Positions 2,675 through 31,521 of a DNA stretch of 52,147 nt are shown here, piece after piece. How positions within the stretch are numbered: the stretch's first letter is position 1; every line of letters starts with the position of its first letter. This stretch comes from Kofleriaceae bacterium (GTDB lineage: Bacteria > Myxococcota_A > Polyangia > Haliangiales > Haliangiaceae). The DNA lies in assembly GCA_018058095.1 (NCBI GenBank), contig JAGPCO010000047.1:1-52147 (forward strand), in the 5' to 3' direction. Under the pieces are notes generated by a model. The model saw nothing but the letters and a program-made list of their open reading frames with translations. It searched no databases and was not told the origin of the DNA. The position numbers and the translations under genes are program-made.

Positions 2675-3277
2675 TCACCGGCGCCGACCCGAGCGCGAAC
2701 GGCGTGTCCGCGGCGGCGGCCCTGCAGCGGCGGCGGAGCGTCCCAAACGCCGCGACTTTGTGGACGGGCCTTTCGCCCCCGGCGCCCGTGGCGCCACTGT
2801 TGACGCTGCGCCGTCACTGCCATCGGTGAGCGATTCCAGCATGGCGACGTCGACGAGGTCCTTGGGCCGGCCGGCAGCTCGCTTGTTCTTGATCAGCGCG
2901 TCCCGCCCGATCACGAACAATGGCCGCTTGAGGAAGCCGGCCTCGACCCGCGACGCCCAGGCCTGCGCGAAGGTGACCCCATCGATCCCGGTGAGGATGT
3001 CGATGCGCCAGGGCTTGTGACCGAGCATGAACACCTTGTCGGGCTCGGCGAGGATCGCCGCCGAAGGTGCCACCGCGGCGAACCCGAAGTCAGCCAGCGC
3101 GGCGTGCAGGCGCTTGCCGTTGGCAAGGGAGGCCTCGACGAACACGTCGAGGTCCTCGGTGAGCCGGGCCTCACCGTGGCCGGAGACGGCGTGGCCGCCG
3201 ACCAGGACGAACCGCACTCGTCGGTCGATCAGCGCACACAAGAACTCGCTCCAATCTTGATTCACCTCGATCTTCAC
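2675..3277 (-). CDS. Nucleotidyltransferase, MenT/AbiEii-like (putative toxin)
   Basis: GTG 3277 is chosen because KIEVNQDWSEFL is the usual family start. Residues about 20-45 hold the fold signature FVLVGGHAVSGHG followed by LTEDLDVFVE, where the GG turn and the paired acidic residues bind metal and nucleotide. The core continues to GRPKDLVDVAMLESL (about residue 150). Proteins of this kind are found as the nucleotidyltransferase half of two-gene toxin-antitoxin-like modules. The last about 45 residues are Arg/Pro/Ser-rich, look like read-through into unrelated DNA and are not expected in the family, so the 3' end may have been damaged by the rearrangement at 2268-2674. The small upstream ORF overlaps its 5' end and is the probable partner. 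Confidence 0.7.
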   Translation of the reverse strand: MKIEVNQDWSEFLCALIDRRVRFVLVGGHAVSGHGEARLTEDLDVFVEASLANGKRLHAALADFGFAAVAPSAAILAEPDKVFMLGHKPWRIDILTGIDGVTFAQAWASRVEAGFLKRPLFVIGRDALIKNKRAAGRPKDLVDVAMLESLTDGSDGAASTVAPRAPGAKGPSTKSRRLGRSAAAAGPPPRTRRSRSGRRR

Positions 3278-3416
3278 CGAACCAGACCCTTCGTAGGCGC
3301 TCGACTCCCGAGATGCGCTCTTCGAGGGACATCCTCCGGAGGTCATCGCGGTCGAGGCGCGCGGCCTCCTGGAACGTGCTCGCGACCCGGACCACGCGCT
3401 GCATCAGGCGGATCAT
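3171..3416 (-). CDS. Small partner of the nucleotidyltransferase (putative antitoxin)
   Basis: The protein is 81 aa from ATG 3416; an alternative start is ATG 3404. Residues 5-42 (QRVVRVASTFQEAARLDRDD, then MSLEERISGVERLRR) match the pattern of short proteins that precede this nucleotidyltransferase type, in which a VxxxxxFEEA strand is followed by a 'YYRSLSPEERLEIL'-like helix. The frame overlaps the nucleotidyltransferase by 107 bp. The segment SRLERVL still resembles the family end, while the Arg/Pro-rich last 20 residues do not. The true protein may therefore be shorter, or the module may carry a frameshift. Neutralisation of the neighbouring enzyme is inferred from gene order only. Confidence 0.55.
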   Translation of the reverse strand: MIRLMQRVVRVASTFQEAARLDRDDLRRMSLEERISGVERLRRVWFGEDRGESRLERVLVCADRPTSAVRPGRRPRRLRPR

Positions 3417-4494: not shown

Positions 4495-5547
4495 CTACAG
4501 CTTGGCGAGCAGTTCCTTCTTCTTCGTGTCGAACTCGGCCTCGGTCAGGATGCCGGCCGTCTTGAGCTCGCCGAGCTGCTTGAGCATGGCCATGATCTGG
4601 TCCTTGCTCTCGGGCGCGGCCGGCGCCGCCGGTCCGGCCGGGCGCGGGGCCTGGGCCTGGCCCATCATGTTGCCCATCTGCCCGGCCATGGCGAAGCCCA
4701 GGCCGATGCCAGCGCCCTGCATCGCGCCGCCGGCGTCGCCGCCCTTCTTCATGCCTTCGGCCGCGCCCATCATCATCTCGGCCTGGGCCAGCTGCTGGTA
4801 GCCGGCCATGCCGCCCGAGGCGTTGACGTAGGCGAAGCGCTCGACCAGCTTGTCGAGACGGTCCTTGTCGGCCTGGTCCATCGAGATCGTGAAGTCGCCA
4901 AAGCGCATGATCTCGACGCCGTACGGCTCGATGTGCTTGCGCACCGCGCCCAGGGTGAAGGTCTCGATCTCGTCGGTGTAGGCCCCCGACGTGACCTTCA
5001 TCATCGGCCAGTTCTCCTTCACGATCAGCTCGGCGATGTGGTCCTTGATGACCTTCTGGATCTGGCTCTTGAACCAGCCCAGGAACGCCTCGTTGTCGGT
5101 CGCGCGCTGGCCGACCAGCCCGACCACCAGCTTGGTCGGGTCCATGGCCTTGGCCGAGAACTCGCCGTGCACCATCAGGCGCACGCGCAGCTGGGTCTGC
5201 GGGTCCATCACGTCACCGACGGAGGTGCCGAACTTGATCGACGGCATCTCGCGGGTGGTGACGAAGAACACCTCGCAGATGAAGACGTTGCCGCCGGTGA
5301 ACTTGTCGACCAGCTGGCCCAGGAACGGGATGTTCGAGGCGTCGAGCGTGTGCCGCCCGGCCGAGAAGGTGCCGACGTACTGGCCGTTCTTGAAGAACAG
5401 CGCGACCTCGTCCTGATCGACCGTGAGCTGGGCCTTCATCGGGATGGTCTGGTCGGGGTGCTTGTAGACCCACAGGCCCTTGGCCGAGTCCGGCCGCGCG
5501 ATGGCGAGCTCTTTGACGCCGCCCTTGATGAAATCCATGATGCCCAT
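4495..5547 (-). CDS. SPFH-domain (YdjI-like) protein with C-terminal SHOCT motif
   Basis: ATG 5547 is chosen because GGAGG lies about 10 nt upstream. The open frame runs further back into the 19-bp repeat array only by chance. Residues 1-290 resemble the YdjI/'virion core protein' branch of the SPFH (stomatin/prohibitin/flotillin) superfamily, with a beta-rich N-terminus (GLWVYKHPDQTIPMKAQLTV...) and a long helical part ending near QQLAQAEMMMGAAEGM. A Gly/Ala/Met/Pro-rich linker follows, and residues about 315-350 are a SHOCT-type helical pair (ELKTAGILTEAEFDTKKKEL). Family members form membrane-associated oligomeric platforms and often accompany phage-shock-like proteins. No transmembrane helix is evident. 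The promoter must lie in or next to the minisatellite upstream. Confidence 0.88.
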   Translation of the reverse strand: MGIMDFIKGGVKELAIARPDSAKGLWVYKHPDQTIPMKAQLTVDQDEVALFFKNGQYVGTFSAGRHTLDASNIPFLGQLVDKFTGGNVFICEVFFVTTREMPSIKFGTSVGDVMDPQTQLRVRLMVHGEFSAKAMDPTKLVVGLVGQRATDNEAFLGWFKSQIQKVIKDHIAELIVKENWPMMKVTSGAYTDEIETFTLGAVRKHIEPYGVEIMRFGDFTISMDQADKDRLDKLVERFAYVNASGGMAGYQQLAQAEMMMGAAEGMKKGGDAGGAMQGAGIGLGFAMAGQMGNMMGQAQAPRPAGPAAPAAPESKDQIMAMLKQLGELKTAGILTEAEFDTKKKELLAKL

Positions 5548-5740
5548 TGCTGTCTTGCCTCCGTCGGTCCCGCCGAGAACTTGGCGAACGGCCCCAAACC
5601 TAGCACACCGCTGGCGACGTGCTGGCCTACCGCGATGCCCGGCGCTGGCCAGGGCGGGTTTCCGGTTCCGGTGTGCGGCTGGGGTCGGCGGTGGCGGCAC
5701 TCGTCCGTCCGGGCGCCCAGCGTGCCGGAGCGGAACGGCC

Positions 5741-6420
5741 CGTCCGTCCGTCCGGTGGGAGGCCGTCCGTCCGCCCTCCGTCCGGCCGTCATCCAGTTTG
5801 AGGCCGTTGTCCGGTTGGAGGCCGTCGTCCGGCTGGAGGCCGTCCGTCCGGTCCGTCCGGCCTGAGGCCGTGGAGGCCGTCTGTCCGGTGTGCGGCCGTC
5901 CATCCGGTGCGCGGCCGTCCGTCCGGCGTGAGGCCATGGAGGCCGTCGGTCCGGCGTGAGGCCATGGAGGCTGTCCGTCCGGTGGGAGGCCGTCCATCCG
6001 ATGTGAGGCCGTCCGTCCGGTGTGAGGCCGTCCGTCCGGTGGGAGGCCGTCGTCCGGCTGGAGGCCGTCCGTCCGGTGGGAGGCCGTCCGTCCGGTGGGA
6101 GGCCGTCCGTCCGGTGGGAGGCCATGGAGGCCGTCTGTCCGGTGGGAGGCCGTCCGTTCGGTGGGGGGCCGTCCGTCCGGTGGGAGGCCGTCCGTCCGGT
6201 GGGAGGCCGTCGCCGTCCGTCCGGTGTGAGGCCGTCCGTCCGGTGGGAGGCCGTCCGTCCGGTGGGAGGCCGTCCGTCCGGTGGGAGGCCGTCCGTCCGG
6301 TGGGGTGCCGTCCGTCCGGTGGGAGGCCGTCCGTCCGGTGGGGTGCCGTCCGTCCGGTGGGAGGCCATGGAGGTCGTCCGTCCGGTGGGAGGCCGTCCGT
6401 CCCGGGTGAGGCCGTCCCTC
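5741..6420. repeat. Minisatellite: about 30 or more copies of a 19-bp unit
   Basis: The consensus unit is GTCCGTCCGGTGGGAGGCC. It is repeated head to tail, most regularly from 6001 to 6400, with diverged copies (GGTGTGAGGCC, GGCTGGAGGCC, GGTGGGGTGCC) and occasional insertions of GGCCATGGA towards the left. Because 19 is not a multiple of 3 and the unit has no stop in most registers, long open frames appear on both strands, encoding 19-residue repeats such as PSVRWEAVRPVGGRPSGGR. These are a consequence of the unit and are not evidence of genes. The array fills the space between the divergently transcribed SPFH gene and the lipoprotein genes. Units are contiguous without spacers, so it is not a CRISPR. 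Confidence 0.95.
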
Positions 6421-6682
6421 GTGCGGCCCGTATGGCCATGCGCGGCCTCAGGTGCCAGCCAATGTCTGCCAAGTTACGATTTCTACAAGGCAAGAGGTGG
6501 CTTTCGAGGCGGCTCCACCTCACCCGCACGAGATCCGCTCGGTTACCGGACAGTGGAGGTCACGAAACGTCTTGCTGGCAGGGGGGGGCTGTTGTGTAAC
6601 GTGCCCCCACTTCCTGACACCGACGACCGGTGACGGGAAGGCCTCACCTAAGCTTGCAGACTCGCCCGGAGGTCCTTCGCCC
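6421..6682. other. Region upstream of the lipoprotein genes
   Basis: The 262 bp between the minisatellite and the first lipoprotein start contain no gene I can support, although one frame is open through it. The stretch 6460-6510 is locally richer in A+T and, with 6590-6610 (TGTTGTGTAACGTGCC), is the likely promoter area. No consensus -35/-10 pair stands out. Confidence 0.3.
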
Positions 6683-7528
6683 ATGGCTCGCACCGCCTCG
6701 CTCGCCTCGCTCGGCTCCCTCGCGTTGATCCTCCTGGCCGCGTGTGGCCCCGCGCCGCGCGATGGCGGCGGTGACGATGGCGGCGGCGGTGGTGGCGATG
6801 TCGACGCGCCTGTTGGCCCGACCTGCACCCCGACCGGAACCACCGAGACCGCCTGCGGCGACGGCGTCGATGAGGACTGCGACTTCTCGACCGACTGCGG
6901 TGACCCCGACTGCTTCGGCATCGCCGGCTGCCCCGACGGCGGCGGCACCGACTGCGAGGTCGAGACGCCGAGCATCTCGTTCCCGCTTCCGGACGGTGTG
7001 TGCACCAACGCCAACGACGTCAACACCTGCTCGGCCTACGAGGGCATCATGAACTTGTCGGGGTTCGCGGCCGGCGCGACCCTGGACGACCCCAGCAAGC
7101 TCCTGGCCATCTGCGTCAACATGGAGCACTCGTGGCTGCGCGACCTCGAGATCGAGGCGTACTGCCCCGACGGCAACAAGGTCGTGCTGAGCGACTTCGC
7201 CGGCCGCGTCGGAGGCGAGGTCTACCTCGGCCAGGCCAACGACGGCGACAGCTCGCAGACCCCGGTCCCCGGCGTCGGCTTCGACTACTGCTGGAAGCCG
7301 GCCGCCGGCAACCCGGCGATGATCGTGTACGCCAACGCCACCGGCGTCGACGTGCTGCCGGCCGGCGACTACCAGCCGTCGGAGCCGTTCACCGGCTTCG
7401 CCGGCTGCTCGCTCAACGGCGCCTGGAAGCTGCGCGTGGTCGACGCCTGGGGCGCCGACAACGGCTTCATCTTCGGCACCTCGATGATCTTCGACAGCAG
7501 CCTCGGCGACTGCCCGATCATCGAGTAG
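6683..7528 (+). CDS. Lipoprotein with Cys-rich DGxDEDCD motif and P-domain-like C-terminus (paralogue 1)
   Basis: ATG 6683 is chosen because GGAGG lies about 11 nt upstream and a signal peptide follows directly. The protein is 281 aa. Residues 1-21 end in LILLAAC, a lipobox, so the mature protein is lipid-anchored. A Gly/Asp linker leads to ETACGDGVDEDCDFSTDCGDPDC, cut here to its core: CGDGVDEDCD then DCGDPDC, the putative metal-binding motif common in myxobacterial surface proteins. The C-terminal half carries HSWLRDLEIEAYCPDG and NGAWKLRVVDAWG, typical of the proprotein-convertase P-domain jelly roll. No protease domain is present, so a binding or structural surface role is likely. The next gene is a close paralogue. 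Confidence 0.85.
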   Translation: MARTASLASLGSLALILLAACGPAPRDGGGDDGGGGGGDVDAPVGPTCTPTGTTETACGDGVDEDCDFSTDCGDPDCFGIAGCPDGGGTDCEVETPSISFPLPDGVCTNANDVNTCSAYEGIMNLSGFAAGATLDDPSKLLAICVNMEHSWLRDLEIEAYCPDGNKVVLSDFAGRVGGEVYLGQANDGDSSQTPVPGVGFDYCWKPAAGNPAMIVYANATGVDVLPAGDYQPSEPFTGFAGCSLNGAWKLRVVDAWGADNGFIFGTSMIFDSSLGDCPIIE

Positions 7529-7586: not shown

Positions 7587-8447
7587 ATGCGTCGCATCAG
7601 CCTGCTCGCCGCGATCCTGACCCCGATGACCCTGGCCGCGTGTGGCCCCGACGTGCGTGACAACGGCAACGGCAACGGCACCGGGGTCGACGCCCGCGGC
7701 GGCGGCGGCAACTGCACGCCGACCGCGACCCAGGAGACCGCGTGTGGCGACGGCTTCGACGAGGACTGTGACAACGCGACCGACTGCGGCGACCCCGACT
7801 GCTACGGCGTCGGCTCGTGCCCGGCCAACCCAGGCGGCAACTGCGAGGTGCAGACCCCGAGCGTGTCGTTCGCGCTGCCCGACGGCGTGTGCACCCAGGC
7901 CGAGATCATGGGTATCCCGGACAGCGACCCGACGTACCCGAACTACTGCTCGGCCTACGAGGGCGTGATGAACCTGTCCGGCTTCGCCGCCGGGGCGACC
8001 CTGGCCGATCCGAGCAAGCTGCTCGCCATCTGCGTGAACATGGAGCACTCGTGGCTGCGCGACCTCGAGATCGAGGCGTACTGCCCCGACGGCAACAAGG
8101 TCGTCCTGAGCAACTTCGAGGGGCAGCAGGGCGGCGAGGTCTACCTCGGCCAGGCCAACGACGACGACGAGTTTGGCGCGCCGATCCCCGGCGTGGGCTT
8201 CGACTACTGCTGGCGCCCGACCGCGACCAACCCGGCGATGATCCCGTACGCCAACCAGGCCGGCGTCGCCGTGTTGCCGGCCGGTGACTACCAGCCGTCG
8301 GAGCCGTTCACCGGCTTCGCGGGCTGCTCGCTCAACGGCGCCTGGAAGCTGCGCGTGGTCGACGCCTGGGGCATCGACAACGGCTACATCTTCTCGACCT
8401 CGATGGAGTTCGACGGCAGCCTCGGCGACTGCCCCATCATCGAGTAG
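7587..8447 (+). CDS. Lipoprotein with Cys-rich DGxDEDCD motif and P-domain-like C-terminus (paralogue 2)
   Basis: ATG 7587 follows CCGGAGG at a normal distance. The protein is 286 aa. The lipobox is MTLAAC (Cys about 19), followed by an Asn/Gly-rich linker and CGDGFDEDCD...DCGDPDC. Long blocks are identical to paralogue 1, for example LLAICVNMEHSWLRDLEIEA and VLPAGDYQPSEPFTGFAGCS. The main differences are an inserted QAEIMGIPDSDPTYPNY segment and the linker. The 58-bp spacing and shared orientation suggest a recent tandem duplication and joint transcription with paralogue 1. The same exported, lipid-anchored role is expected. Confidence 0.85.
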   Translation: MRRISLLAAILTPMTLAACGPDVRDNGNGNGTGVDARGGGGNCTPTATQETACGDGFDEDCDNATDCGDPDCYGVGSCPANPGGNCEVQTPSVSFALPDGVCTQAEIMGIPDSDPTYPNYCSAYEGVMNLSGFAAGATLADPSKLLAICVNMEHSWLRDLEIEAYCPDGNKVVLSNFEGQQGGEVYLGQANDDDEFGAPIPGVGFDYCWRPTATNPAMIPYANQAGVAVLPAGDYQPSEPFTGFAGCSLNGAWKLRVVDAWGIDNGYIFSTSMEFDGSLGDCPIIE

Positions 8448-18632: not shown

Positions 18633-18781
18633 GGCGTTCTGTACTCGCTCGCCGCCGCGCTGGCAAGGACCGGGCCGCCCGCTGGCGACGGCGCGGTCAC
18701 GCCGCCGCGCGGCTTTACCTGGTCGCTCGCGTTGCCTGGGCGAGACCCGGCAAGTAGATTCGTCGGGCCGTGGTGCAAGCG

Positions 18782-21700
18782 ATGGCCGACGTCTCTCACT
18801 ACCTCGCGATCCTCGACGGAGATCCCGACGATGCGGCGGTCGTGCGTGGGCTGGCGACGGCGCTGGCCGGCGTCCCGTCCGATCGGGTCGCCGAGACCGC
18901 GGCCGCGCTCGCGCGCAGCCGCAAGACCCTGCGCGAGCGCGGCCGGTTCGACGCCGTCGTCCACCTGCTCGAGCTCGAGCTGGCGGCGCCGGCGCTGGTG
19001 GCGAGCGCTGACCGCCGGGCCGATCTCCTGCTCGAGAAGGCCGCGGTGTACTTCGACGACCTCCTCGACGAGGCGCAGGCGGCTGCCGCGTTCCGGCAGG
19101 TCCTGGAGGCGCGGCCGGGCGACGAGGCGGCGACCGATGGCCTGCAGGAGATCGAGGAGGCGCAGGCCAACTGGGGCAAGTTCGCCGACAAGTACGTCGG
19201 GGAGGCCCGGGCCTCGACCGATCGCCAGCTGGCGACCCAGCTGTACCTGGCCGCGGCCGAGACCGTCGGCCGGCACGCACCCGGGCACCCCGACGTCGAG
19301 CAGCACCTGCGCGCCGCGCTCGAGGTCGAGCCGCGCAACCGTCGGGCCGCCGTCCACCTCGAGCGTGTGCTCGGGCGGGGCCAGCGCTGGGCCGCGCTGG
19401 TCGAGCTGCTCGGGCAACGAGCCGACCTGGCCGGCGCCAGCCGCGACGAGCGGGTCGCGGCCCTGGTCAGCTTGTCCGAGGTCGCGCGCGCGCAGCTGGC
19501 CGACGCCGACGTCGCCACCAGCGCGCTGGCGCGCGCCATCGCCATCGACCCCGGCCACCCGGCGGCGGTACGCCAGCTGGCCGACCTGTACGCGGCCGGC
19601 GAGAAGTGGCGGGAGCTGGCCGCGCTGTACCAGGGCGCGATGAAGGCCCGCCCGGGCGGCGCGGAGGACGTCGGCCTGGGCCTGCAGGTCGGCATGATCC
19701 TGTGGAAGCACCTGGGTGAGCTCGACGCCGCCGAGGAGTTCCTGCGCCGGGTCCGCAAGGGCGACCCGACCCACCCGGCCGTGCTCGACTTCTACCGGGC
19801 CTACTACCCGGCGCGCGGCGAGGGCGCCAAGCTGGTCGCGCTGCTGCGTCAGGCCGAGGCCGCGGTGCCGGCCGGCGACAGCCGGCAGCGGGCGTTCGCG
19901 CTCGAGATCGCCGAGCTGGCCGAGGCCCAGCTCGGCAACCCGGAGAAGGCGATCGAGGCGTGGAAGCAGCTGCTGCGGGCCGAGCCGACCTCGGTCGAGG
20001 CCCGGGCCGCGCTGGCCCGCCTGTACCGCAAGAGCGAGAAGTGGAACGCGCTGCTCGACCTGCGCAAGGAGGACGAGGCCCGCCTGGCCGAGACCGACGT
20101 CGCCGGCCGCGTCGCCATCCTGTTCGACATCCTCGAGATCTACCGCGACCGCCTCAAGCTCGACGGCATGGTGCTGAGCACCTACAACACCCTCCTCAAG
20201 CTCGAGCCGGACAACCGGCGTGCGCTCGACGAGCTGGCCGAGAAGTTCCGGCAGATGTCGCGCTGGAACGACCTCATCGCCCTGCTGACCCGCAAGGCCG
20301 AGGTCGGCACGCTGGGCGGGGCCGAGCGGATCGGCCTCCTGCGCGAGGTCGCCTCGTTGTGGATCGATCGCTTCGGCAACTTCGCGCAGGCGGTGCGGCC
20401 GCTCGAGCAGATCCTCGAGCTGGCGCCCGGCGACGTCGACGCGGTGACCCGGCTCAAGGACATCTACACCCGGCGCCGGCAGTGGCGCGCGCTCATCGCC
20501 CTCCTCGGCAAGGAGGCCGAGCAGCTGGGTCCGGACGAGCGTCGGGTCAAGCAGGCCGAGATGGCCCGCCTGGCCATGGAGCGGGTCGGTGACCAGCGCT
20601 ACGCCATCGAGATCTGGAACCAGGTTCTGGCCGACGCCGCCCGCCGCGGCGGCGACGACCCCGGCCTGGGCGACACCCTGGCGGCGCTGGCCGGGCTGTA
20701 CGAGCGCGAGAAGCGCCACCTCGCCCACGTCGAGATCCTGCGGCGGCAGCGGCGGCGCGCGGCCACCCCGACCGAGGCCATCGCCCTGCTCGAGAAGATC
20801 GGCGCGATCCTGGCCGATCGGGTCGGCGCGCCGGCGCAGGCGGCCTCGGTCTGGCAGGAGATCCTCGGGCTCGACCCCAACCACGGCAAGGCCCTGCGCA
20901 CCCTGCGCGAGCTGCTGGCGGCGGCGCGCGACTGGGACGGGCTCGAGGCGCTGTACGCCCGGCTCGGCCACGAGGACGAGCTGGTCGAGGCCCTGATGGC
21001 CATCGCCGACCGCACCGACGATCGCGCCGCGCGGGCCGCGCTGTACGAGCGGGCGGCGACGGCGGCGCAGCGGCGCGGCGGCGACGGCGGCGGGTCCGAG
21101 CGCTCCACCCGGGTGTGGGAGCGCCTGATCGCCGTCGAGCCCACTCACCTGCGGGCGGCGCGCGAGCTCATCCCGCACTACCTCGGGCACGACAAGTTCG
21201 CCAAGGTCCTGCCGCTGTACGAGGTGGTGCTGGGCCACGCCAGCACCGACCCCGAGCGCCTCGCCGTGATGGCCGACATCCGCGCCCTGTGCGAGCACAA
21301 GCTGGGCTCCAAGGGCCTGGCCCACGCGTGGACCGGTCGCGCCATCGCCCTGGCCCCGACCGATCCGGCCCTGCGCCGGGACCTGCTGCGCCTGGGGCGC
21401 GACCCCGAGCACGTCGGCACGACGGTGACGGTGCTCGAGCAGCTGACCGAGCACCCGGACATGATCGCCGCCGCGCCGGCCGCGCAGATCGAGCTGCTGC
21501 GTGACCTCGCCAGCCTGTACGAGCGCGACCGCAAGGACCCCGAGCGGGCCCGGGCCGCGTGGCGGCGGGTGCTGGTCCTGGCGCCGGGGGATGCCGACGC
21601 GGTGCGCCGGATCGAGGCGCTGTCGACCGAGCTGGCCGACTGGCCGGCGCTGATCGCGTCGATGCGGCAGCGCGCGCAGGTCGCGCCCGACGACCACACC

Positions 21701-24700
21701 CGGGTCGCGCTGCTGGTCGAGATCGCCACCGCCGAGGAGCAGCGCCTGGCCGACCTCGACGCCGCGGCGGCGACCTACCAGGACGTGCTGGCGCGCGACC
21801 CCGGTCACCGCGCTGCCGCCCGCTCGCTGGCCCGGCTGGCCGAGGCCCGGGGCGACTGGGACGGCGTGGTCAGCGCGCTGGATCTCGAGCTCGCCAGCGC
21901 CAGCACCGACGCCGAGCGGGCCCGGTTGCACCTGCGCATCGCCCAGGTCCAGGCCACGGCCGGTCCCGACAGCGACGCGGCGCTCGGCCGCCTGCTGGCC
22001 GCGTTCGCGCTCACCACCACGGCCGACGCCGGCGCCGGCGGCAGCCGGGACCAGGCCTACGCCGGCCTGCGCCGCGCGCTCGAGCCGGGTGCCGCGGTGA
22101 CGCCGGCCCGGGTCCTGGAGATCGCCGACGCGGTGGCCGGGCCGGCCGCCGCCCGTGGTGACTTCTGGGCCGAGGCGCGCGCGCTCGAGCTGCGCCGACC
22201 GACGCTGCCGGCCGGCGCCGCCGCGCTGGGGTGTGACCGCCGGCTGCTCGAGCTGTACCAGGGCGAGCTGTTCGACGACGCCCAGGCCCACGCGGCCGGG
22301 CTGCGGGTGCTGGCGGCCGCGCCCGCTGACGGCGCCGTGCGCTCGTCGCTGTTCGGGCTGGCCGAGCGGCTCGGCCGCGACGGCGAGCTGGCCGGCGCCC
22401 TCGGCGCGGCCCTGGCGGCGCTGCGGGCCGACCCCGCCGCGGCCGCGTCGGACCGCCGCGCCGTCGCCACCGAGCTGGCCATGCTGGCGGGCGAGCGCCT
22501 GCGCGACGCCGCCCTGGCCGAGCGGGCCTGGCTGGCCGTGCTCGAGGTCGAGCCGGCCGCACCCGACGCGCTGGCCGCGCTGGCCGCGCTGTACCGCGCC
22601 GGCGCGCGCACCGGCGATCTGCGCGCGTTGCTCGAGCGCTGGTCCCAGGTCGCCGTCGACGATCCGGTCCGCATCCGGGTCCTGACCGAGGCGGCCGCGC
22701 TCGACGAGGAGCTCGGCGACCCGGCCCGCGCCGCCGGGGTCCATCGCCAGCTCCTCACCCTCGATCCGACCGCGCTGGCCAGCTACCAGGCGCTCGACGC
22801 CTACCTGACGGCACGCGCCGACTGGGCCGGCCTCGACGACCTGCTCGCCAGCCAGCTCGGCCACCAGGTCGGCGACGTCGACGCCCTGACGGTGCGGCGG
22901 GCCGAGCTGGCCGCGCACCACCTGCAGGCGCCCGATCGCGCGGTCGACCTGCTGGAGGAGGCGGTGGCGCGCCGGCCCGGCAACGCCGACGCCCGCGAGC
23001 TGCTCGAGGAGCTGCTGGCCGATCCGACCCACGGCCTGCGCGTGGCCAACCTGCTCGAGCCGCTGTACCAGCGCGACGGCCTGTGGAAGGACCTGGCCGG
23101 CGTGCTGCGCCGGCAGGCCGCGTCGGCCGGCGGCCCGGCCGAGGCGTTCGAGCTGGCGGTGCGGATCGCCGGCCTCGAGGAGGCGCGCCTCGAGCAGCCG
23201 CGCGCCGCCTTCGACAGCTGGCTCGGCGCGTTCGGGCTCGACCCGACCGACGGTCGCCCGCGCGCGGCGCTGGCCGGGCTGGCGGCCACGCAGGCGCGCT
23301 GGCCCGAGGTGGCCCGCGCCTACGAGGCGGCGCTCGGCGGTGACCTCGGCAGCGGCGATCGCGCCGCCTTGCTGGCCGAGCTGGCCGAGCTGTACGACAC
23401 CCAGCTCGACGACGCCGACGGCGCGATCCGGACGTATCGCCGCCTGGTCGACGCCGACCCGACCAGCCCCGACACCGTGCGGCGGGCCGGCGCGGCGCTG
23501 GCCCGGCTGTTCGAGGAGGAGGAGTCGTGGCCCGAGCTGCGCGACGTGGTCCGGCGCCAGGCCGAGTGGGCCGACGACGCGACGGCCCGGCGCCAGGCCC
23601 TGTGCCGGGTCGCCCTGCTCGAGGAAGAACGGCTGGGTGATCCCGACGCCGCCATCGCCGCCTGGCGCCAGGTCCTGGCCGACGACCCCGATCACGCCGA
23701 GGCACACGCGGCGCTCGACCGCCTGCTGACCACGCGCGGGCGCTGGCCCGAGCTGATCGACCTCATCCGCCAGGGCCTCGACCGCGCCGAGCCGGCGGCG
23801 GCGAAGGCCAGCCTGCTGCGCATCGCCCAGCTGCAGGAGCAGCGCCTGGCGGCGCCGGGCGAGGCGGTGGCCGCCCTGCGCGAGGTGCTCGACCGCGACG
23901 GCGACGACGATCACGCCTTGGCCGAGCTGGCCCGCCTGGTCCGGGCCGCGGATCGCCCGTCCGAGCTGCTCGAGGTGCTCGAGCGCCGCCTCTCCCTCGG
24001 CCAGGTCGACGCGATCGCGACCGAGGTCGAGATCGCCACCTTGCTCGAGGGCCCGCTCGGACGGCCGAGCGAGGCGCTCGACCGCTGGGCCAGCGTGCTG
24101 CGGCGCAGCCCCGACCGCGCCGACGCCCGCGCCGCCATCGAGCGCGCGGTGGCCGATCCCGGGCTGCGGCCGCGCGCGGCCGAGCTGCTGCACGAGCTGT
24201 TCGCCGCCACCGGCGACGACCTGGCCGCGACCACGCTGCACCTGCAGCTGGCCGACCTGGCCGGCGATCCGGCCGAGGCCGCGCCGCACCTGCGCGCGGT
24301 GATGCGCCTGCGCGAGCAGCGCCTCGGTGACAAGGCCGGGGCGCTGGCGGTCGGCCTGCGCGCCGTCGCCGGCTCGGCCACCGATCCGGAGCTGCCGGCC
24401 CTGCTGGCGGCGACCGACCGGCTGGCGGCCGAGCTGGGGCGTGAGGGCGACCTGATCGACGTCTACCGCCAGGTCGCGCCCGAGGTGCTCGATGCCGACT
24501 TGCAGCGCCGCATGTACCTCGACGTGGCCGACCTGGCGCGCGGGGTGCGCGGGGACAACGCGCTGGCGCGCGAGCACTACCAGCGGGTGCTCGACGCCTC
24601 GCCCGACGATCCGCGCGCGCTGGCCGCGCTCGAGAGCCTGGCCCGCGTCGACGGCGACCCGCGCGCGCTGTGGGAGCTGCTGCAGCGCAAGGCCGAGCTG

Positions 24701-27700
24701 AGCGGCGACGTCGACGAGCAGGTCGAGGCGCTGGCCGAGGCCGCGGCGCTGGCGGCCGGGCCGCTCGGCCGCAGCGACGACGCCATCACCGGATGGGAGC
24801 GGGTGCTCGACCTGGCGCCGGAGCGGCCCGACGCGGTCGCCGCCCTCGACACGCTGTACCGCGGCGCCGCGCGCTGGCACGAGCTGCGCGAGCTGTACGA
24901 GCGCCGCCTCGGCTTCGTGGTGTCGATCGACGAGGCGGTGGCCCTGCGCCTGGCCCTGGCCGAGCTGCACCGCGAGCGCCTGCTCGACACCGAGGGCGCG
25001 ATCGAGCACTACGCCGCCGCCCTCGGCGGCGACGCCGATCAGCCGAGGGCGCTGGCCGCGCTCGAGGAGCTCCTGCTCGATCCGCAGGCCCAGGCCAGCG
25101 CGGCCGAGGTCCTCGAGCCGATGTTCATCGCCGCGCAGGACTGGCGCAAGCTGGTCCACGTCTACCAGGTCAAGCTCGACAGCGCGGCCGAGCCGGCCGA
25201 GCGGGTGCGCCTGACCCGGTTCGTGGCCCGCCTGTACGAGGAGCAGCTCGAGGACTTCGAGCAGGCCAGCGCCTGGTACGCCCGCCTGTTCCGCGAGGAC
25301 CCGGCCGACGCCAGCGTGCGCGACCAGCTGCAGCGCCTGGCCGGCGTGGTCGACAACTGGGGCTTCGTCGCCGACACCTACCAGCGCTTCGTCGACGCCG
25401 GCGAGGGCGACGCCGACGACCTGCGCGCGGTCGCGCTGGCGCTGGCCGGGGTGAGCGAGCGCCGGCTGGCCGACCTGCCGCGCGCCGCGGCGGCGCTGCG
25501 GCGGGCCCTGGCCGCGCGCAGCGACGACACCCGCGCCGAGGATCGGGAGATCCTGCGCCAGCTCGAGAGCGTGCTCATCCGCGCCGGCGACTACCGCGCC
25601 CTGGTCGACGTCTACGACGACGCGATCCTGGCCAGCGACGACGACGCGACCCGACGCGACCTGGTCATCAAGCGGGCCCGCGTCCTCGAGCGCGAGCTGG
25701 CCGAGCCCGACCGCGCCCTGGCCGGCTGGCGCGACGCGCTCGATCTGGCTGGCGGCGACGACGTGCGCGCGCGCGAGGCCTACGGCCTGGCCGCCGACGA
25801 GATCGAGCGCCTGCTCGGGGCCCGAGAGGCCTGGCGTGACGTGGTCGAGCTGCTGCGGGCGCGCATCGAGCGCACCACCGACGAGAGCGAGGTCGTGACG
25901 CTGCGCCTGCGCATGGCCGGCCTGCTCGAGCAGGTCGGCGACGTCCAGGCCGCGGTCGACGAGTACGAGGAGGTGCTGGCGGCGCCGCGCGGCGGCGATC
26001 GCGGCCTGCCCGCGCTCGAGCGGCTGGTGGTGCGCGACGACCTGCGCGAGCGGGTCAGCGGCCTGCTCGAGCCGCTGTACCGGCAGCGCGACTGGTGGCA
26101 GAAGCTGGTGGTCATCCTCGACGCCAAGCTGGCCTTCGTCAGCGACGTCGACGGGCGCGTCGCCACCCTGCGCGAGATCGCGCGCCTGCACGACCAGCGC
26201 GGCGGCGACCCGGACCTGGCGCTGTCGGCGCTGGCGCGGGCCTGGCGCGAGGACGTGGCCGACCCCGAGGTCCGGGCCGAGCTGGTCCAGCTGGCGACCC
26301 GGCTGGCGGCGTGGAACGACCTGGTCGACGTGCTGGCCGAGGGGGTCGGGCTGGCGGGCGCCGGCGCGGCCGGTGGCGCCGGCGCGGCCGCCGATCCAGA
26401 CCTGGTCGCCGAGGTCGGCACCCAGGTCGCCGAGCTGCACGAGCACCGCCGCGGCGACGTCGGCGCGGCCATCACCGCGTGGCGCCAGGTCCTGGTGGCG
26501 CGCCCCGACGATGTCGCCGCCCTGGCCGCGCTCGATCGCCTGCTGGCGGTGGCCGGCCGGCCGGCCGAGCTGGTCGCGGTCATCGAGCGCCGGGCCGAGC
26601 TGGTCGAGGACGCGGGCGTGCGCCTGGTCCTGCTGCACCGCGCCGCCGCGATGTACGAGGAGGTGCTGGCGGATCCGACGCGGGCCGTGGCCGCCTACCG
26701 CAGCGTGCTCGCCGTCGACGACTCCGACGTGCTCGCGCTCGACGGCCTGGTTCGACTGCACCACCAGCAGCGGCAGCCCCGCGATCTGGCCGACGTCGTG
26801 CGCCGGAAGATCGAGCTGGCCTCGGCCGGCGCGGAGCGCCGTGGCCTGCGCCTGGCCCTGGCCGAGGTGCACGAGCGCGAGCTGGCCGACCCGTACGAGG
26901 CCATCACCCAGCTGCAGGCCGTGCTGGAGGAGGGCGACGGTCGTGACGACGAGGCCCTGGCCGGGCTCGAGCGAATCCACCAGGCCACCCGCATGTGGCC
27001 CGAGCTGCTCGAGGTGCTCGACCGCCGCGCCGCGCTGGCGGCGGCGCCCTCGGCCCGGATCGGCTTCCTGCTGCGCGCCGCCGACCTGGCCGACCGCGAG
27101 CTGGCCGACGGCGAGCAGGCGATCGATCGCCTCGGCCAGGCGCTGGCGCTGGCCCCGGCCGATCCGGGCGCCCACGCCGCGGTGCGGCTGCTGGCCGAGC
27201 GCGACGACCTGGCGGTGAGCGCGACCGCGCTGCTCGAGCAGGCCGCCCGGAGCCAGCGCGACAGCGCGACGCTGATCTGGGTGTTCGAGCGGCGCCTGCG
27301 CCTGTCCACGCTGGTGGGGGACGAGCGGCGCGAGGCCTGGGCCGAGCTGGCCGAGGTGCACGAGACCCTGGCCGGCGACGCCCGCGCTGCCTGGTCCACC
27401 TGGGTCCGGGCCTTCGGCGACCTGACGCCGGTCGAACTCGAGCTGCTGACCCCGCTGACCCGGCTGGCGGGTGCGCTCGGGACCTGGTCGGAGCTGGCGA
27501 CGATCCTCGATCAGCGCCTGGCCGATTGCCGCGACCCCGACGTCGAGTTCGCGCTGGCCATGGCCCTGGGTGGGCTGCGCGAGGATCGCCTGGGTGACCT
27601 GCCCGGCGCCGCCACCGCGTTCGCGCGGGCCGAGGCCAGCCACGTCGACGACCCAGCGGCGCTGGCGGCGCAGGCCCGGGTGCTGGCGCGGGCCGGCAGC

Positions 27701-30121
27701 TGGGCCAGCCTGGTCGAGGTGCTCGGGCGCCAGGCCGAGGCGGCCGCCGACGACGCCGGCGCGGCCGAGTTCCTGTACCGGGCCGGCGATCTGCGCGAGA
27801 GCACGCTGCGCGACGTCCCCGGCGCGGTCGCCGCGTACCGCGACACCCTCAGCCGGGCCCCGCGCCACGCCGGCGCGCGCGCCGCCCTGGCGCGCCAGCT
27901 CGCCGGCGGCGAGGAGGTGGCGGCGGTGGCCGACGTGCTCGAGCCGCTGTACGAGGACGAGCAGGACTGGGTCCGGCTGTACGACGTGGTCGCGGCCCGC
28001 CTGGCCATCACGCCCGATCGCCTCGATCGCGCGGCCCTGTGCCAGCGCCTGGTCGAGATCGCCGACCGCCGCATCGCCGACCGGGCCCGCGCGTTGAGCG
28101 CGGCGCTGGCCTGGCTCGCGGCCGATCCGGCCTCGCGTGACGCCTTCGCCGAGGCCGAGCGCCTGGCGGCGGCGCGCGGGGCATGGGCCGACCTGGTCAC
28201 CCAGGCCGAGCCCCTGGTCGACCAGCTCGGCGACGCCCTGACCCAGGTCGGGCTGCTGCTCGACCTCGGCCGGGTCCAGCTCGAGCACCTGCGGGCGCCG
28301 TCGGCGGCGGCCAGCCTGTTCACCCGGGCGCTCGCCCTCGACCCCGACTGCATGCCGGCCATCGAGGGCGCCGCCAGCGCCTACCGCGCCCTGGGTGACC
28401 ACGCGCGCCTGGCCGACCTCGAGTGGCGGCGCGGCCAGCTCGCCAGCGACCCGGCGCTGCGCCGCGTCGCCTTCACCGAGGTCGGCGAGCTGCGCGAGCA
28501 GGTCGGCGACGATGTCGGCGCGGCGCAGGCGTGGGAGGCCGTGCTCGAGGTCGACGACGCCGATCGGTTCGCGCTCGATCGGCTGGCGCGGGTGTACGAG
28601 CGGCGCGGCGACCGGGCCGCGCTGGTCGACGTCCTCGCCCGCACCGCGGCGGTGAGCCGTGATCCCGGCGAGGAGCGCGCGCTGCGCGTTCGCCTGGCCA
28701 CCCTCGAAGACAGCGGCGCCGACCCGGCGGCGGCGGTGCGGGCCTGGCAGGCCGTGGTCGACGTGGCCCCCGACGACGATCAGGCGCTGACCGCGCTCGA
28801 GGCGGCGCACCAGCGCGTCGGTGACCTGCGCGCGGTGGCCGACGTGATCGGGCGCCGGCTCGACCTCGCCAGTGGCACCGCCGCCCGCATCGCCCTGATG
28901 GCGCGGCTGGCGCGCCTGGCCGAGCAGCAGGGCCAGCCCGACGAGGCGGTCGCGCAGTGGTTCGCGGTGATCGACGCCGACGGGCGCGAGCTGACCGCCT
29001 TCGCCGAGCTCGAGCGCCTGCTCGGCGAGCAGAAGCGCTGGCACGACCTGGTCGAGGTGCTGGCACGCCGCGCCGAGTCCGAGGCCCTGGTCGGCAACGC
29101 GGCCGACGAGCTGCGCGCGCTGGCCCGAGCCGCCGACGTGTGGGAGGGGCCGCTCGACGACGCCGACGCCGCGCGTGAGCTGCTCGAGAAGATCCTCGCG
29201 CGCGACCCGGCCTCGGTGGTGGCGCTGACCCGGCTGTCTCGCATCTACGAGCGTGGCTCCGACTGGGAGCGCTGCAGCCAGGTGCTGCAGCGGGCCCTGG
29301 CCATGGGCCCGACCGGGCGCGACGCCGCCGATCTGTTCTTCCGCCTGGCCCAGGTCGCGCAACGCGGCGACGGCGACGCCGCCACCGCCCAGGCCCACCT
29401 CCGGCAGGCCCTGGTCCACGACCGGACCCACGCCGAGGCGCTGGCCGCGCTCGAGGCGCTGGCGCGCGAGCGTGGCGATGGCGCCCTGCTGGTCGACGCC
29501 CTGCGCCGCCGCCTCGACATCGTCGCCGGCGCCGATCGTCGGCCGGTCCTGCTCGAGCTGGCCGAGCTCGAGCGCAAGGCCGGCCAGCCGGCCAGCGCGC
29601 TGCCGCTGCTCGAGGAGGCCGATCGCGGCAGCCCGGGTGACCCGACCGTGCTGGCGCCGCTGGCCGACGCCTACGTCGCGGCCGGGCAGCTCGACCGGGC
29701 CGCACCCATCCTCGAGAAGCTGGCCGACGAGGCCCGCGCCGCCCGGCGCATGAAGGACGTGGCCAGGTACCGCCAGCGGCAGGGCGCCATCCTCGAGGCG
29801 CGTGGCGACGGCCCGGGCGCGCTGGTGGCCTACGAGGAGGCGTTCCGGGTCAACCCGACCGACGTCGCGACCATGGCCGGGCTCGGGCGCCTGTACATGC
29901 ACGCGCGCGACTGGGACAAGGCGCGCCGGGTCTACCGGTCGCTGGTGCTGCAGACCATCGACGCCGACGCCGGCGTCAGCAAGGGCGACGTCTACCTCGC
30001 GCTCGGCGTCATCCACGTCGAGCTGGGCGAGGCGCCCAAGGCCCGCGGCATGTACCAGCGCGGGCTCGAGCTCGAGCCGGGCCATGACGGCCTGCGCCAG
30101 GCGCTGGCCGCGCTCGGGTGA
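18782..30121 (+). CDS. Giant TPR/HAT-like repeat protein, about 3,780 residues
   Basis: A single open frame of 11.3 kb encodes one protein. ATG 18782 is preferred and GTG 18770 is in frame just upstream. There is no signal peptide or membrane helix, so a cytoplasmic location is likely. Nearly the whole length is built from paired helices of TPR type: the recurring pattern is A(A)xxxxxxLxxxPxxxxALxxLxxLYxxxxxWxxLxxLLxRxAE, with the elements 'W..L', 'R..LL..iA.L.E..LgD...A...W..vL' repeated many dozens of times. The last 100 residues are a classical TPR pair (VYLALGVIHVELGEAPKARG). Such solenoids are scaffolds for protein assembly. The 150 bp upstream separate it from the divergent exporter genes. 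A comparably long open frame on the opposite strand reflects codon bias. Confidence 0.93.
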   Translation: MADVSHYLAILDGDPDDAAVVRGLATALAGVPSDRVAETAAALARSRKTLRERGRFDAVVHLLELELAAPALVASADRRADLLLEKAAVYFDDLLDEAQAAAAFRQVLEARPGDEAATDGLQEIEEAQANWGKFADKYVGEARASTDRQLATQLYLAAAETVGRHAPGHPDVEQHLRAALEVEPRNRRAAVHLERVLGRGQRWAALVELLGQRADLAGASRDERVAALVSLSEVARAQLADADVATSALARAIAIDPGHPAAVRQLADLYAAGEKWRELAALYQGAMKARPGGAEDVGLGLQVGMILWKHLGELDAAEEFLRRVRKGDPTHPAVLDFYRAYYPARGEGAKLVALLRQAEAAVPAGDSRQRAFALEIAELAEAQLGNPEKAIEAWKQLLRAEPTSVEARAALARLYRKSEKWNALLDLRKEDEARLAETDVAGRVAILFDILEIYRDRLKLDGMVLSTYNTLLKLEPDNRRALDELAEKFRQMSRWNDLIALLTRKAEVGTLGGAERIGLLREVASLWIDRFGNFAQAVRPLEQILELAPGDVDAVTRLKDIYTRRRQWRALIALLGKEAEQLGPDERRVKQAEMARLAMERVGDQRYAIEIWNQVLADAARRGGDDPGLGDTLAALAGLYEREKRHLAHVEILRRQRRRAATPTEAIALLEKIGAILADRVGAPAQAASVWQEILGLDPNHGKALRTLRELLAAARDWDGLEALYARLGHEDELVEALMAIADRTDDRAARAALYERAATAAQRRGGDGGGSERSTRVWERLIAVEPTHLRAARELIPHYLGHDKFAKVLPLYEVVLGHASTDPERLAVMADIRALCEHKLGSKGLAHAWTGRAIALAPTDPALRRDLLRLGRDPEHVGTTVTVLEQLTEHPDMIAAAPAAQIELLRDLASLYERDRKDPERARAAWRRVLVLAPGDADAVRRIEALSTELADWPALIASMRQRAQVAPDDHTRVALLVEIATAEEQRLADLDAAAATYQDVLARDPGHRAAARSLARLAEARGDWDGVVSALDLELASASTDAERARLHLRIAQVQATAGPDSDAALGRLLAAFALTTTADAGAGGSRDQAYAGLRRALEPGAAVTPARVLEIADAVAGPAAARGDFWAEARALELRRPTLPAGAAALGCDRRLLELYQGELFDDAQAHAAGLRVLAAAPADGAVRSSLFGLAERLGRDGELAGALGAALAALRADPAAAASDRRAVATELAMLAGERLRDAALAERAWLAVLEVEPAAPDALAALAALYRAGARTGDLRALLERWSQVAVDDPVRIRVLTEAAALDEELGDPARAAGVHRQLLTLDPTALASYQALDAYLTARADWAGLDDLLASQLGHQVGDVDALTVRRAELAAHHLQAPDRAVDLLEEAVARRPGNADARELLEELLADPTHGLRVANLLEPLYQRDGLWKDLAGVLRRQAASAGGPAEAFELAVRIAGLEEARLEQPRAAFDSWLGAFGLDPTDGRPRAALAGLAATQARWPEVARAYEAALGGDLGSGDRAALLAELAELYDTQLDDADGAIRTYRRLVDADPTSPDTVRRAGAALARLFEEEESWPELRDVVRRQAEWADDATARRQALCRVALLEEERLGDPDAAIAAWRQVLADDPDHAEAHAALDRLLTTRGRWPELIDLIRQGLDRAEPAAAKASLLRIAQLQEQRLAAPGEAVAALREVLDRDGDDDHALAELARLVRAADRPSELLEVLERRLSLGQVDAIATEVEIATLLEGPLGRPSEALDRWASVLRRSPDRADARAAIERAVADPGLRPRAAELLHELFAATGDDLAATTLHLQLADLAGDPAEAAPHLRAVMRLREQRLGDKAGALAVGLRAVAGSATDPELPALLAATDRLAAELGREGDLIDVYRQVAPEVLDADLQRRMYLDVADLARGVRGDNALAREHYQRVLDASPDDPRALAALESLARVDGDPRALWELLQRKAELSGDVDEQVEALAEAAALAAGPLGRSDDAITGWERVLDLAPERPDAVAALDTLYRGAARWHELRELYERRLGFVVSIDEAVALRLALAELHRERLLDTEGAIEHYAAALGGDADQPRALAALEELLLDPQAQASAAEVLEPMFIAAQDWRKLVHVYQVKLDSAAEPAERVRLTRFVARLYEEQLEDFEQASAWYARLFREDPADASVRDQLQRLAGVVDNWGFVADTYQRFVDAGEGDADDLRAVALALAGVSERRLADLPRAAAALRRALAARSDDTRAEDREILRQLESVLIRAGDYRALVDVYDDAILASDDDATRRDLVIKRARVLERELAEPDRALAGWRDALDLAGGDDVRAREAYGLAADEIERLLGAREAWRDVVELLRARIERTTDESEVVTLRLRMAGLLEQVGDVQAAVDEYEEVLAAPRGGDRGLPALERLVVRDDLRERVSGLLEPLYRQRDWWQKLVVILDAKLAFVSDVDGRVATLREIARLHDQRGGDPDLALSALARAWREDVADPEVRAELVQLATRLAAWNDLVDVLAEGVGLAGAGAAGGAGAAADPDLVAEVGTQVAELHEHRRGDVGAAITAWRQVLVARPDDVAALAALDRLLAVAGRPAELVAVIERRAELVEDAGVRLVLLHRAAAMYEEVLADPTRAVAAYRSVLAVDDSDVLALDGLVRLHHQQRQPRDLADVVRRKIELASAGAERRGLRLALAEVHERELADPYEAITQLQAVLEEGDGRDDEALAGLERIHQATRMWPELLEVLDRRAALAAAPSARIGFLLRAADLADRELADGEQAIDRLGQALALAPADPGAHAAVRLLAERDDLAVSATALLEQAARSQRDSATLIWVFERRLRLSTLVGDERREAWAELAEVHETLAGDARAAWSTWVRAFGDLTPVELELLTPLTRLAGALGTWSELATILDQRLADCRDPDVEFALAMALGGLREDRLGDLPGAATAFARAEASHVDDPAALAAQARVLARAGSWASLVEVLGRQAEAAADDAGAAEFLYRAGDLRESTLRDVPGAVAAYRDTLSRAPRHAGARAALARQLAGGEEVAAVADVLEPLYEDEQDWVRLYDVVAARLAITPDRLDRAALCQRLVEIADRRIADRARALSAALAWLAADPASRDAFAEAERLAAARGAWADLVTQAEPLVDQLGDALTQVGLLLDLGRVQLEHLRAPSAAASLFTRALALDPDCMPAIEGAASAYRALGDHARLADLEWRRGQLASDPALRRVAFTEVGELREQVGDDVGAAQAWEAVLEVDDADRFALDRLARVYERRGDRAALVDVLARTAAVSRDPGEERALRVRLATLEDSGADPAAAVRAWQAVVDVAPDDDQALTALEAAHQRVGDLRAVADVIGRRLDLASGTAARIALMARLARLAEQQGQPDEAVAQWFAVIDADGRELTAFAELERLLGEQKRWHDLVEVLARRAESEALVGNAADELRALARAADVWEGPLDDADAARELLEKILARDPASVVALTRLSRIYERGSDWERCSQVLQRALAMGPTGRDAADLFFRLAQVAQRGDGDAATAQAHLRQALVHDRTHAEALAALEALARERGDGALLVDALRRRLDIVAGADRRPVLLELAELERKAGQPASALPLLEEADRGSPGDPTVLAPLADAYVAAGQLDRAAPILEKLADEARAARRMKDVARYRQRQGAILEARGDGPGALVAYEEAFRVNPTDVATMAGLGRLYMHARDWDKARRVYRSLVLQTIDADAGVSKGDVYLALGVIHVELGEAPKARGMYQRGLELEPGHDGLRQALAALG

Positions 30122-30246
30122 GGCGGGGTCTGGGCGCGAGAACCGCCGCCGCGCGGCGCCTCTGCGCGCCCTGCTTGGAGTCCGACCCCGTATTCTGGGC
30201 GCCGCGACGGCCGGACTCGCTCAGGCCTCGTCGAGGCGGGGCACCG

Positions 30247-31065
30247 TCATCGCGCGCGTGGAGGCCGTGGAGGCCGTCGGTCCAGCAGCTCGGCCGGGTC
30301 GATCGGCCCGCCAGCGCGGAGCCAGCCCTCGCGCGCGAGCCAGGTCTTTGCAGCGCTCAACGGGGCGCCCGCGGGAGGCGGCGACCCGTCGATGACCCAG
30401 ACACCCGACTTCGTCGGGTGCCATCGTCCCGACGACCACCGGTCGGGCTCGAAGAAGCGCAGGCGCTGACGGAGCTGGCCGGGATTGGCTCGCCAATCCC
30501 GGATCGAATGACTCACGTGGTTGAACAGGACGTAGCGCAGGGTGTTGCGCATCTGCGTCGGTGAGGTGACCGGGCGGGCGTGGTAGCGGTCGGCGAAGAC
30601 CCGGCCACGCCGGGCGAAGGCCTTGTTCCAGCCGCGGGCCAGGCGGATCGCCAGCCCCTTCATGCCGCGCGACAGCGCGGTGTCATCGTCGGCCTCGACG
30701 ATGAGGTGGAGGTGGTTGCCCTCGAGGGCGTAGTGCAAGACGCGAAAGCCGCTGACGCGCGTGTGGTCACGCGCGCCGGTCAGGGCGCGCTCGAGCACCT
30801 CGCGGCCGGCGTGGGTGCGCAGCCTGGGCAGGGTGTCGACGGTGCGCAGGCTGACGTGGTGGACGGCGGTCCTCGCGAAGCGAGGTCTCCGGCAGCGCTT
30901 GACCGAGTTGCGGTGCTGCAGGGGCGGGCGTCCGCGCCGGCGCCGCCGCGGCCGTCGCGGTGGCGTGGTGATGCCGCGCACCAGGTCGTCGAAGCTGACC
31001 TGGGCCCCGGCCGGCACGGCGCGGCGACGTCGGTCGCTGCGGGGGCGAGCGGCGGACGAAGACAT
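30247..31065 (-). CDS. REP-associated tyrosine transposase (RAYT, Y1_Tnp family)
   Basis: The protein is 272 aa, close to the usual RAYT size, and starts at ATG 31065. The HuH metal-binding motif is H118-L-H120 in LEGNHLHLIVE. The conserved downstream sequence is GRVFADRYHARPVTSP, and the candidate nucleophile is Y178 in RNTLRYVLFNHV. The N-terminus is a basic Arg-rich tail (residues 1-65). RAYTs are single-stranded-DNA transposases that recognise and mobilise REP hairpins. Here, palindromes of two related kinds lie directly upstream, and several hairpins lie inside the gene itself (30402-30420, 30481-30500, 30871-30885). No frameshift is seen, so the gene appears intact. An A+T-rich TATATA segment just upstream is the probable promoter. 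Confidence 0.93.
   Translation of the reverse strand: MSSSAARPRSDRRRRAVPAGAQVSFDDLVRGITTPPRRPRRRRRGRPPLQHRNSVKRCRRPRFARTAVHHVSLRTVDTLPRLRTHAGREVLERALTGARDHTRVSGFRVLHYALEGNHLHLIVEADDDTALSRGMKGLAIRLARGWNKAFARRGRVFADRYHARPVTSPTQMRNTLRYVLFNHVSHSIRDWRANPGQLRQRLRFFEPDRWSSGRWHPTKSGVWVIDGSPPPAGAPLSAAKTWLAREGWLRAGGPIDPAELLDRRPPRPPRAR
30402..30500. repeat. REP-like hairpins inside the RAYT coding region
   Basis: CACCCGAC-TTC-GTCGGGTG (30402-30420) is a perfect 8-bp stem with the same CACCCG...TTC...CGGGTG form as the upstream REP hairpins. GGGATTGG-CTCG-CCAATCCC (30481-30500) is a second perfect 8-bp stem. Both lie in codons for the C-terminal part of the transposase. The relic at 14680 lacks the first and has a different hairpin (14855-14873) at the place of the second. 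Confidence 0.75.
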
Positions 31066-31068
31066 TTA

Positions 31069-31085
31069 GAGCGTATATATTTTCG
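31069..31085 (-). promoter_or_regulatory. Probable RAYT promoter, A+T-rich -10 region
   Basis: The run TATATATTTT at 31074-31083 (read on the minus strand as AAAATATATA) is by far the most A+T-rich spot in this part of the window. It lies about 10 bp upstream of the transposase ATG at 31065. This spacing implies a very short leader. No clear -35 box was found. Confidence 0.4.
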
Positions 31086-31158
31086 CGACGATGATGACGA
31101 GGGGTTTCGGCGGAGTGGCGACGATTTCCGGGACGGCGGGGACGCCGGCAGTGGACCG

Positions 31159-31266
31159 GCCCGGGCGTCGGCTGAAGCCTCCTGCTGTGGACAGGCGCAT
31201 GGCGTGGCGCGGGTGGAGACGGGCGTGGAGAGGGGCAGCGCCTGCCCACAGCAGTCCGCCCGGGCC
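31159..31266. repeat. REP-like composite palindrome 1
   Basis: The outer arms GGCCCGGGCG (31159-31168) and CGCCCGGGCC (31257-31266) are perfect complements. Inside them, CTGCTGTGGACAGGCGC (31182-31198) and GCGCCTGCCCACAGCAG (31238-31254) pair with one mismatch. The element can fold into one long cruciform upstream of the RAYT gene. Its inner arm sequence (GCTGTGGRCAGGCGC) recurs in palindrome 3. Confidence 0.8.
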
Positions 31267-31304
31267 TGGACATGCGGATCCTGAGGGGTGTTTCCACCCA
31301 AGAC

Positions 31305-31338
31305 CCCTGACACCCGGCTTCGCCGGGTGGGGTCAGGG
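31305..31338. repeat. REP-like hairpin 2
   Basis: CACCCGGC-TTC-GCCGGGTG (31311-31329) is a perfect 8-bp stem with a 3-nt loop. It is extended by CCCTGA (31305-31310) pairing with TCAGGG (31333-31338) across a 3-nt bulge. This is the classical REP form of a GC-rich stem with a small loop. Confidence 0.8.
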
Positions 31339-31394
31339 TCAGGGACGGATTCGAAAGAATCCCGTTGGGGGAGCCACGACAGTCCCGGGGGGGC

Positions 31395-31467
31395 CGCTGT
31401 GGGCAGGCGCCGTCGCCGTGGCTCGAGTGCCCTCACGCCCGGCTTCGCCGGGCGCCTGTCCACAGCG
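31395..31467. repeat. REP-like composite palindrome 3
   Basis: CGCTGTGGGCAGGCGCC (31395-31411) pairs with GGCGCCTGTCCACAGCG (31451-31467) with one mismatch. Nested at its right end is CGCCCGGC-TTC-GCCGGGCG (31436-31454). Arms are of the same family as palindrome 1, so 31159-31467 holds alternating inverted copies, as in BIME arrays of REP elements. Confidence 0.8.
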
Positions 31468-31521
31468 CGAGGCCGAAGGCCGACCCCGGGGCGATCCGAA
31501 GTCGTTACGGGGTCGGACCTG

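Follow-up and report, generated by a model that had tools for sequence, protein, structure and literature searches.

A 19-bp Minisatellite between Divergent SPFH and Lipoprotein-like Genes in a Kofleriaceae Genome

Results

The locus and its counterparts in related genomes

The window, i.e. the whole stretch of 52,147 nucleotides analysed here, contains a tandem array in the region between a gene for an SPFH protein and two paralogous lipoprotein-like genes on the opposite strand (Table 1). The family keeps this gene order: a methyltransferase gene and the SPFH-SHOCT gene are followed by divergent genes for lipoproteins or a Bmp-type protein. Of 56 genomes searched, 46 (the source genome included) have a homologous SPFH gene, and the named relatives are Kofleriaceae and other Myxococcales MAGs. 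In many cases, the homologues adjoin a methyltransferase gene and lie opposite lipoprotein or Bmp genes. Elsewhere in the window, the protein of positions 2675-3346 (- strand) weakly matches PF08843 (E 4.6e-6), a family of AbiEii nucleotidyltransferase toxins, and positions 18770-30121 (+ strand) form a single open frame of 3783 codons that, judged by eye, would encode a very long TPR-like repeat protein.

Table 1. Features of the window and the evidence for each.
Feature	Position	Strand	Evidence
SPFH (Band_7_1) protein with C-terminal SHOCT domain	4495..5547	-	Pfam PF13421 E 6.7e-23, PF09851 E 1.2e-6
Conserved -10-like motif TGTGCTAGGTT, putative SPFH gene promoter	5597..5609	-	Motif common to relatives
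19-bp minisatellite, + strand unit GTCCGTCCGGTGGGAGGCC	5741..6417		TRF, unit parsing, sole such array in genome
Diverged left part of the array, presumably older	5741..5969		Mean 2.75 mismatches per 19-mer versus 0.7 rightward
Promoter-like site TTGCTG-17 bp-TGTAACGT, putative lipoprotein gene promoter	6572..6602	+	
Lipoprotein-like protein, partial P-domain match	6683..7528	+	Pfam PF01483 E 5.3e-6; lipoprotein signal LLAAC by sequence
P-domain lipoprotein-like protein, paralogous to 6683..7528	7590..8447	+	Pfam PF01483 E 1.7e-6
Y1 (IS200-like, RAYT-like) transposase, possible seed	30247..31065	-	Pfam PF01797 E 5.1e-6

The gap between the SPFH gene and the divergent gene is 1135 bp in the window versus mostly ~60-233 bp in the relatives, as estimated from tblastn over those loci with a recognised divergent gene beside SPFH; some relatives have a different gene in that place, and to these the comparison does not apply. 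No array of comparable length was found upstream of SPFH in the relatives examined. Apart from the short motifs, neither array flank (193 and 262 bp) aligns significantly to the relatives' intergenic DNA, and hence the array alone does not explain the enlarged gap.

Structure of the array

TRF reports a repeat at 5744-6366 with a period of 19, 33.1 copies, a score of 604, 76% matches and 9% indels, the consensus unit being CCGTCCGTCCGGTGGGAGG. A second stretch, at 6369-6417, likewise has a period of 19, and the array as a whole comprises ~35 head-to-tail copies. When cut at unit ends, it falls into 39 pieces. Of these, 24 are exactly 19 bp long, while the remainder are shorter or longer (7, 9, 15, 18, 21, 23, 24 and 25 bp); 13 pieces are identical to the consensus. 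A pattern search of the genome finds 14 exact units, every one within the array, including one contained in a 24-bp piece. At a lag of 19, the self-identity of the array is 0.68, versus at most 0.48 at the best lag for ~500 other 680-bp pieces of the window, lags of up to 199 having been compared. The tandem repetition is thus above chance, with a unit inside the range of ~10-100 bp that is usual for a minisatellite. TRF, self-identity and unit parsing all bear out the original prediction of a 680-bp minisatellite with a 19-bp unit between divergent genes.

The copies are unevenly diverged. Full-length units to the left of position 5970 carry on average 2.75 mismatches to the consensus, whereas those to the right carry 0.7, in agreement with an earlier description of a diverged left end and a nearly uniform centre. 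The variant units include one of 9 bp (RTGGAGGCC) and one of 18 bp. The 9-bp unit followed by GTCTGTCC occurs at 5870 and again at 6124, the 18-bp unit GTCGTCCGGCTGGAGGCC is present at both 5824 and 6049, and TRF detects additional periods of 66 and 94; such recurring blocks and longer periods are expected from the duplication of multi-unit blocks. The proposal that the array expanded recently fits its uneven divergence, and its absence from the relatives agrees with this.

Distribution of the array and of other tandem repeats

In a pattern search of the 7.57-Mb, 227-contig genome, all units with at most one mismatch map to the array locus. Matches to the 16-bp core elsewhere in the genome are at chance level, apart from those in a Y1 transposase family considered below. 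This is therefore the only such array in its genome. When a 29-bp stretch of the array was searched, with up to 3 mismatches allowed, in its own genome and 316 others of the class, none of those 316 had a match, and a search of 30 genomes of the family gives just isolated single matches at 2 mismatches elsewhere. No match to the array was found among plasmids and viral contigs, and a plasmid or viral origin was ruled out on this basis.

TRF applied to 1.1 Mb of this genome brought up no more than one or two further arrays with scores this high; long arrays are uncommon here, though not absent. The genome also contains an array of an 89-bp unit with 4.8 copies (L116 2694-3212, on contig C37) and one of a 95-bp unit with 4.1 copies (L084 16695-17075, on contig C4). 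Furthermore, long (CTGTTG)n hexanucleotide arrays occur across the genome, many of them at contig ends, with 287 exact overlapping 36-bp matches versus 0 in the reversed control (contigs C4, C7, C11, C16, C17, C24, C36, C40, C41, C47, C55 and others). Several lie within long open frames, where they read as Leu, Val-Ala, Cys or Gln repeats. Their abundance is in line with a general tendency of this genome to accumulate tandem repeats.

Promoter-like motifs on either side of the array

The only hit of a sigma-70 consensus scan, at 5513-5541, falls within the SPFH coding region, and no useful intergenic promoter was obtained. The relatives' gaps, on the other hand, commonly contain TGTGCTA(C/G)GTT ahead of SPFH. 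Of 22 related SPFH loci, some of which may be close relatives of each other, 11 contain the more general form TGYGNTASGTT at 34-71 bp from the start codon, with none expected in shuffled sequences; the motif was first noticed in these same gaps and then counted, so the count is post hoc, although the shuffle control is clean. In the window, the corresponding motif is 60 bp away from the SPFH start codon, and 131 bp separate it from the array. On the other side, the putative lipoprotein promoter is 154 bp from the array end, and its arrangement has 0 occurrences in 2000 shuffles of the right flank. A similar arrangement (TTGNNN, 17 bp, TGTA) precedes the divergent gene in four related loci (L016, L021, L028 and L031).

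We infer that the two motifs are the working promoters of the SPFH and lipoprotein genes. If they are taken as such, the array separates both and touches neither core. Judged by these motifs, it neither overlaps nor abuts a predicted core promoter, which sets it apart from promoter tandem repeats, and it would amount to no more than 0.7 kb of spacer DNA between divergent promoters. An influence of the array on the expression of its neighbours, as had been suggested for changes in copy number, is possible; with the promoter-like motifs lying outside the array at the distances given above, such control appears somewhat less likely than the original prediction supposed.

A transposase tail as a possible seed

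Members of the Y1 transposase family are present in ~40 copies in the source genome, and the older part of the array is similar to the 3′ tail (30256-30286) of the copy in the window. This tail, GCGTGGAGGCCGTGGAGGCCGTCGGTCCAGC, aligns to the array at ~5926-5955. The array may thus have been seeded by a 3′ tail fragment of a RAYT-like transposase, a tentative suggestion that concerns its origin only and is compatible with the explanation we prefer below. The likeness was probed four ways. In the whole genome, the array 25-mer GAGGCCGTGGAGGCCGTCTGTCCGG (5864-5888), with at most 3 mismatches allowed, is found at 5 places in the array, in 18 transposase tails and nowhere else; its reversed control has 0 matches. 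Within the window, the tail is the best 27-mer match outside the array (24/27), and in local alignment it takes joint first place against 7411 genome segments. The location of the likeness in the array's older part also counts in favour of this origin. However, the common stretch is just ~30 bp and was chosen post hoc, one unrelated segment scores equally in the local alignment, and reversed-array controls yield similar BLAST scores. Moreover, none of the other transposase copies inspected has an expanded tail, and the array flanks contain no transposase remnant. The transposase tail is a possible lead at this stage, unproven as the seed.

In the Y1 family (window 30173-31500 and ~40 places in the genome), many copies begin with CTAGGAGTCCGACCCCGTATTCTGGGCGCC, located at or just after apparent TAG stop codons. 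Many contigs end within copies of this transposase.

Discussion

We consider the array to be a young, lineage-specific, GC-rich intergenic minisatellite of a known kind, produced by slippage or unequal recombination and probably near-neutral, with a probability of about three in four for this reading. The starting point would have been a short seed, made up of nested GTCC repeats and GGAGGCC and situated between the divergent promoters of the SPFH and lipoprotein genes; replication slippage together with unequal recombination would have amplified it, a mechanism proposed here from one genome. Each unit has a C-rich first half and a G-rich second half, and pairing between the two halves would favour slipped hairpins. 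Compared with dinucleotide shuffles, the single strands of the array show better folding, with z -4.4 (+ strand) and -7.6 (- strand); given that a repeated, partly self-complementary unit folds well by construction, these scores lend weak support. The array would now separate two apparently intact core promoters, its main effect being that of a spacer.

The same position invites a regulatory interpretation, in which frequent changes in copy number tune expression of SPFH, of the lipoprotein genes or of both. This could operate through an altered distance or altered supercoiling between the divergent promoters, or through the multiplication of a protein-binding site. The predicted placement of the array between two promoters and the near-identity of many copies, which fits ongoing turnover, speak for this. 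There is also a precedent in the tandem repeats of M. tuberculosis promoters, promoter elements reported to vary in copy number (PMC12817950). Nevertheless, both promoter-like motifs are well clear of the array edges, so that core spacing would be unaltered, and the array is conserved in no relative examined. We therefore regard contingency regulation as unlikely. Less probable again is the more elaborate proposal of a contingency locus in a myxobacterial lineage, seeded by a Y1 transposase tail and acting as a fast-changing spacer that couples the divergent SPFH and lipoprotein promoters.

An error of assembly, either a wrong copy number or a mis-joined array, deserves mention since the genome is a draft in 227 contigs and repeats form the ends of many of them. 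However, the longest exact repeat within the array is only 63 bp, which makes a collapsed or invented array unlikely. In addition, the units carry many private variants, and the neighbours on both sides match the family gene order; an artefact is accordingly very improbable.

Translation of the array, as an N-terminal extension of SPFH or as a separate Pro/Gly/Arg-rich protein, can be practically dismissed despite long open frames such as 4495-5997 and 5789-6529 (both - strand), because the stops are at the level expected from composition, units of 9, 18, 19 and 25 bp shift the frame and the SPFH proteins of the relatives begin at the same residue. It is true, as was pointed out earlier, that frames are open in most registers, but this is uninformative: the six frames contain 9 stops versus 7.5 in first-order Markov sequences, and are thus no more open than composition predicts. 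The further remark that the array would tolerate translation reflects only this effect of composition; the relatives, with mostly only 60-230 bp between SPFH and the divergent gene, show no room for a coding extension there. With these short gaps and the composition-level stop count, an SPFH coding extension was ruled out.

The preferred reading, a near-neutral intergenic minisatellite, can be set beside several known systems. Like intergenic minisatellites and VNTR loci, including the M. tuberculosis promoter repeats (PMC12817950), the array consists of imperfect head-to-tail repeats of tens of bases that are extragenic and close to promoters. In contrast to those promoter repeats, it lies outside the predicted core promoters and has many more copies than are described in the available passages on them. 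VNTR loci are defined by polymorphism between strains, whereas this array is known from one genome.

BrickBuilt of Porphyromonas gingivalis is a 23-bp minisatellite inside a MITE, with 19 occurrences, a leader, a tail and inverted-repeat ends (PMC4596501). The two share an intergenic, spacer-less array with a unit of ~20 bp (23 bp in BrickBuilt, 19 bp here). Unlike the 19 copies of BrickBuilt with their inverted-repeat ends, the present array occupies one locus, and both it and its flanks are single-copy in the genome. No terminal inverted repeats were found around it within 5548-6682; the only inverted pair there (6405-6418 with 6635-6648) lies entirely at the right side. A minisatellite-containing MITE was ruled out on account of the single-copy flanks and the lack of flanking inverted repeats.

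REPs, in turn, are dispersed 20-40-bp palindromes of REP/RAYT systems (PMC3733652, PMC2817692). The source genome resembles such systems in having a multi-copy Y1 transposase family with a tail similar to part of the array. It differs in that the window has direct repeats gathered in one tandem array; short dispersed palindromes, as in REPs or REPINs, are not what is found here.

Other candidates were set aside. A G-quadruplex array was ruled out, as only two-G motifs are present and none with runs of three G. A known RNA family was dropped after a search of the window with Rfam gave nothing at gathering thresholds. As for an array of iterons or partition sites, no gene for replication or partition came to notice beside it, an incidental observation.

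Taken together, the locus provides a clear example of a long minisatellite arising in one lineage, in a gap that is short among related species, with promoter-like motifs still recognisable on either side. Beyond its interest as a marker and a spacer, the array is ordinary. Strains of the group could be typed with it, and it offers a clean site at which to ask whether the placing of ~0.7 kb between divergent promoters changes expression.
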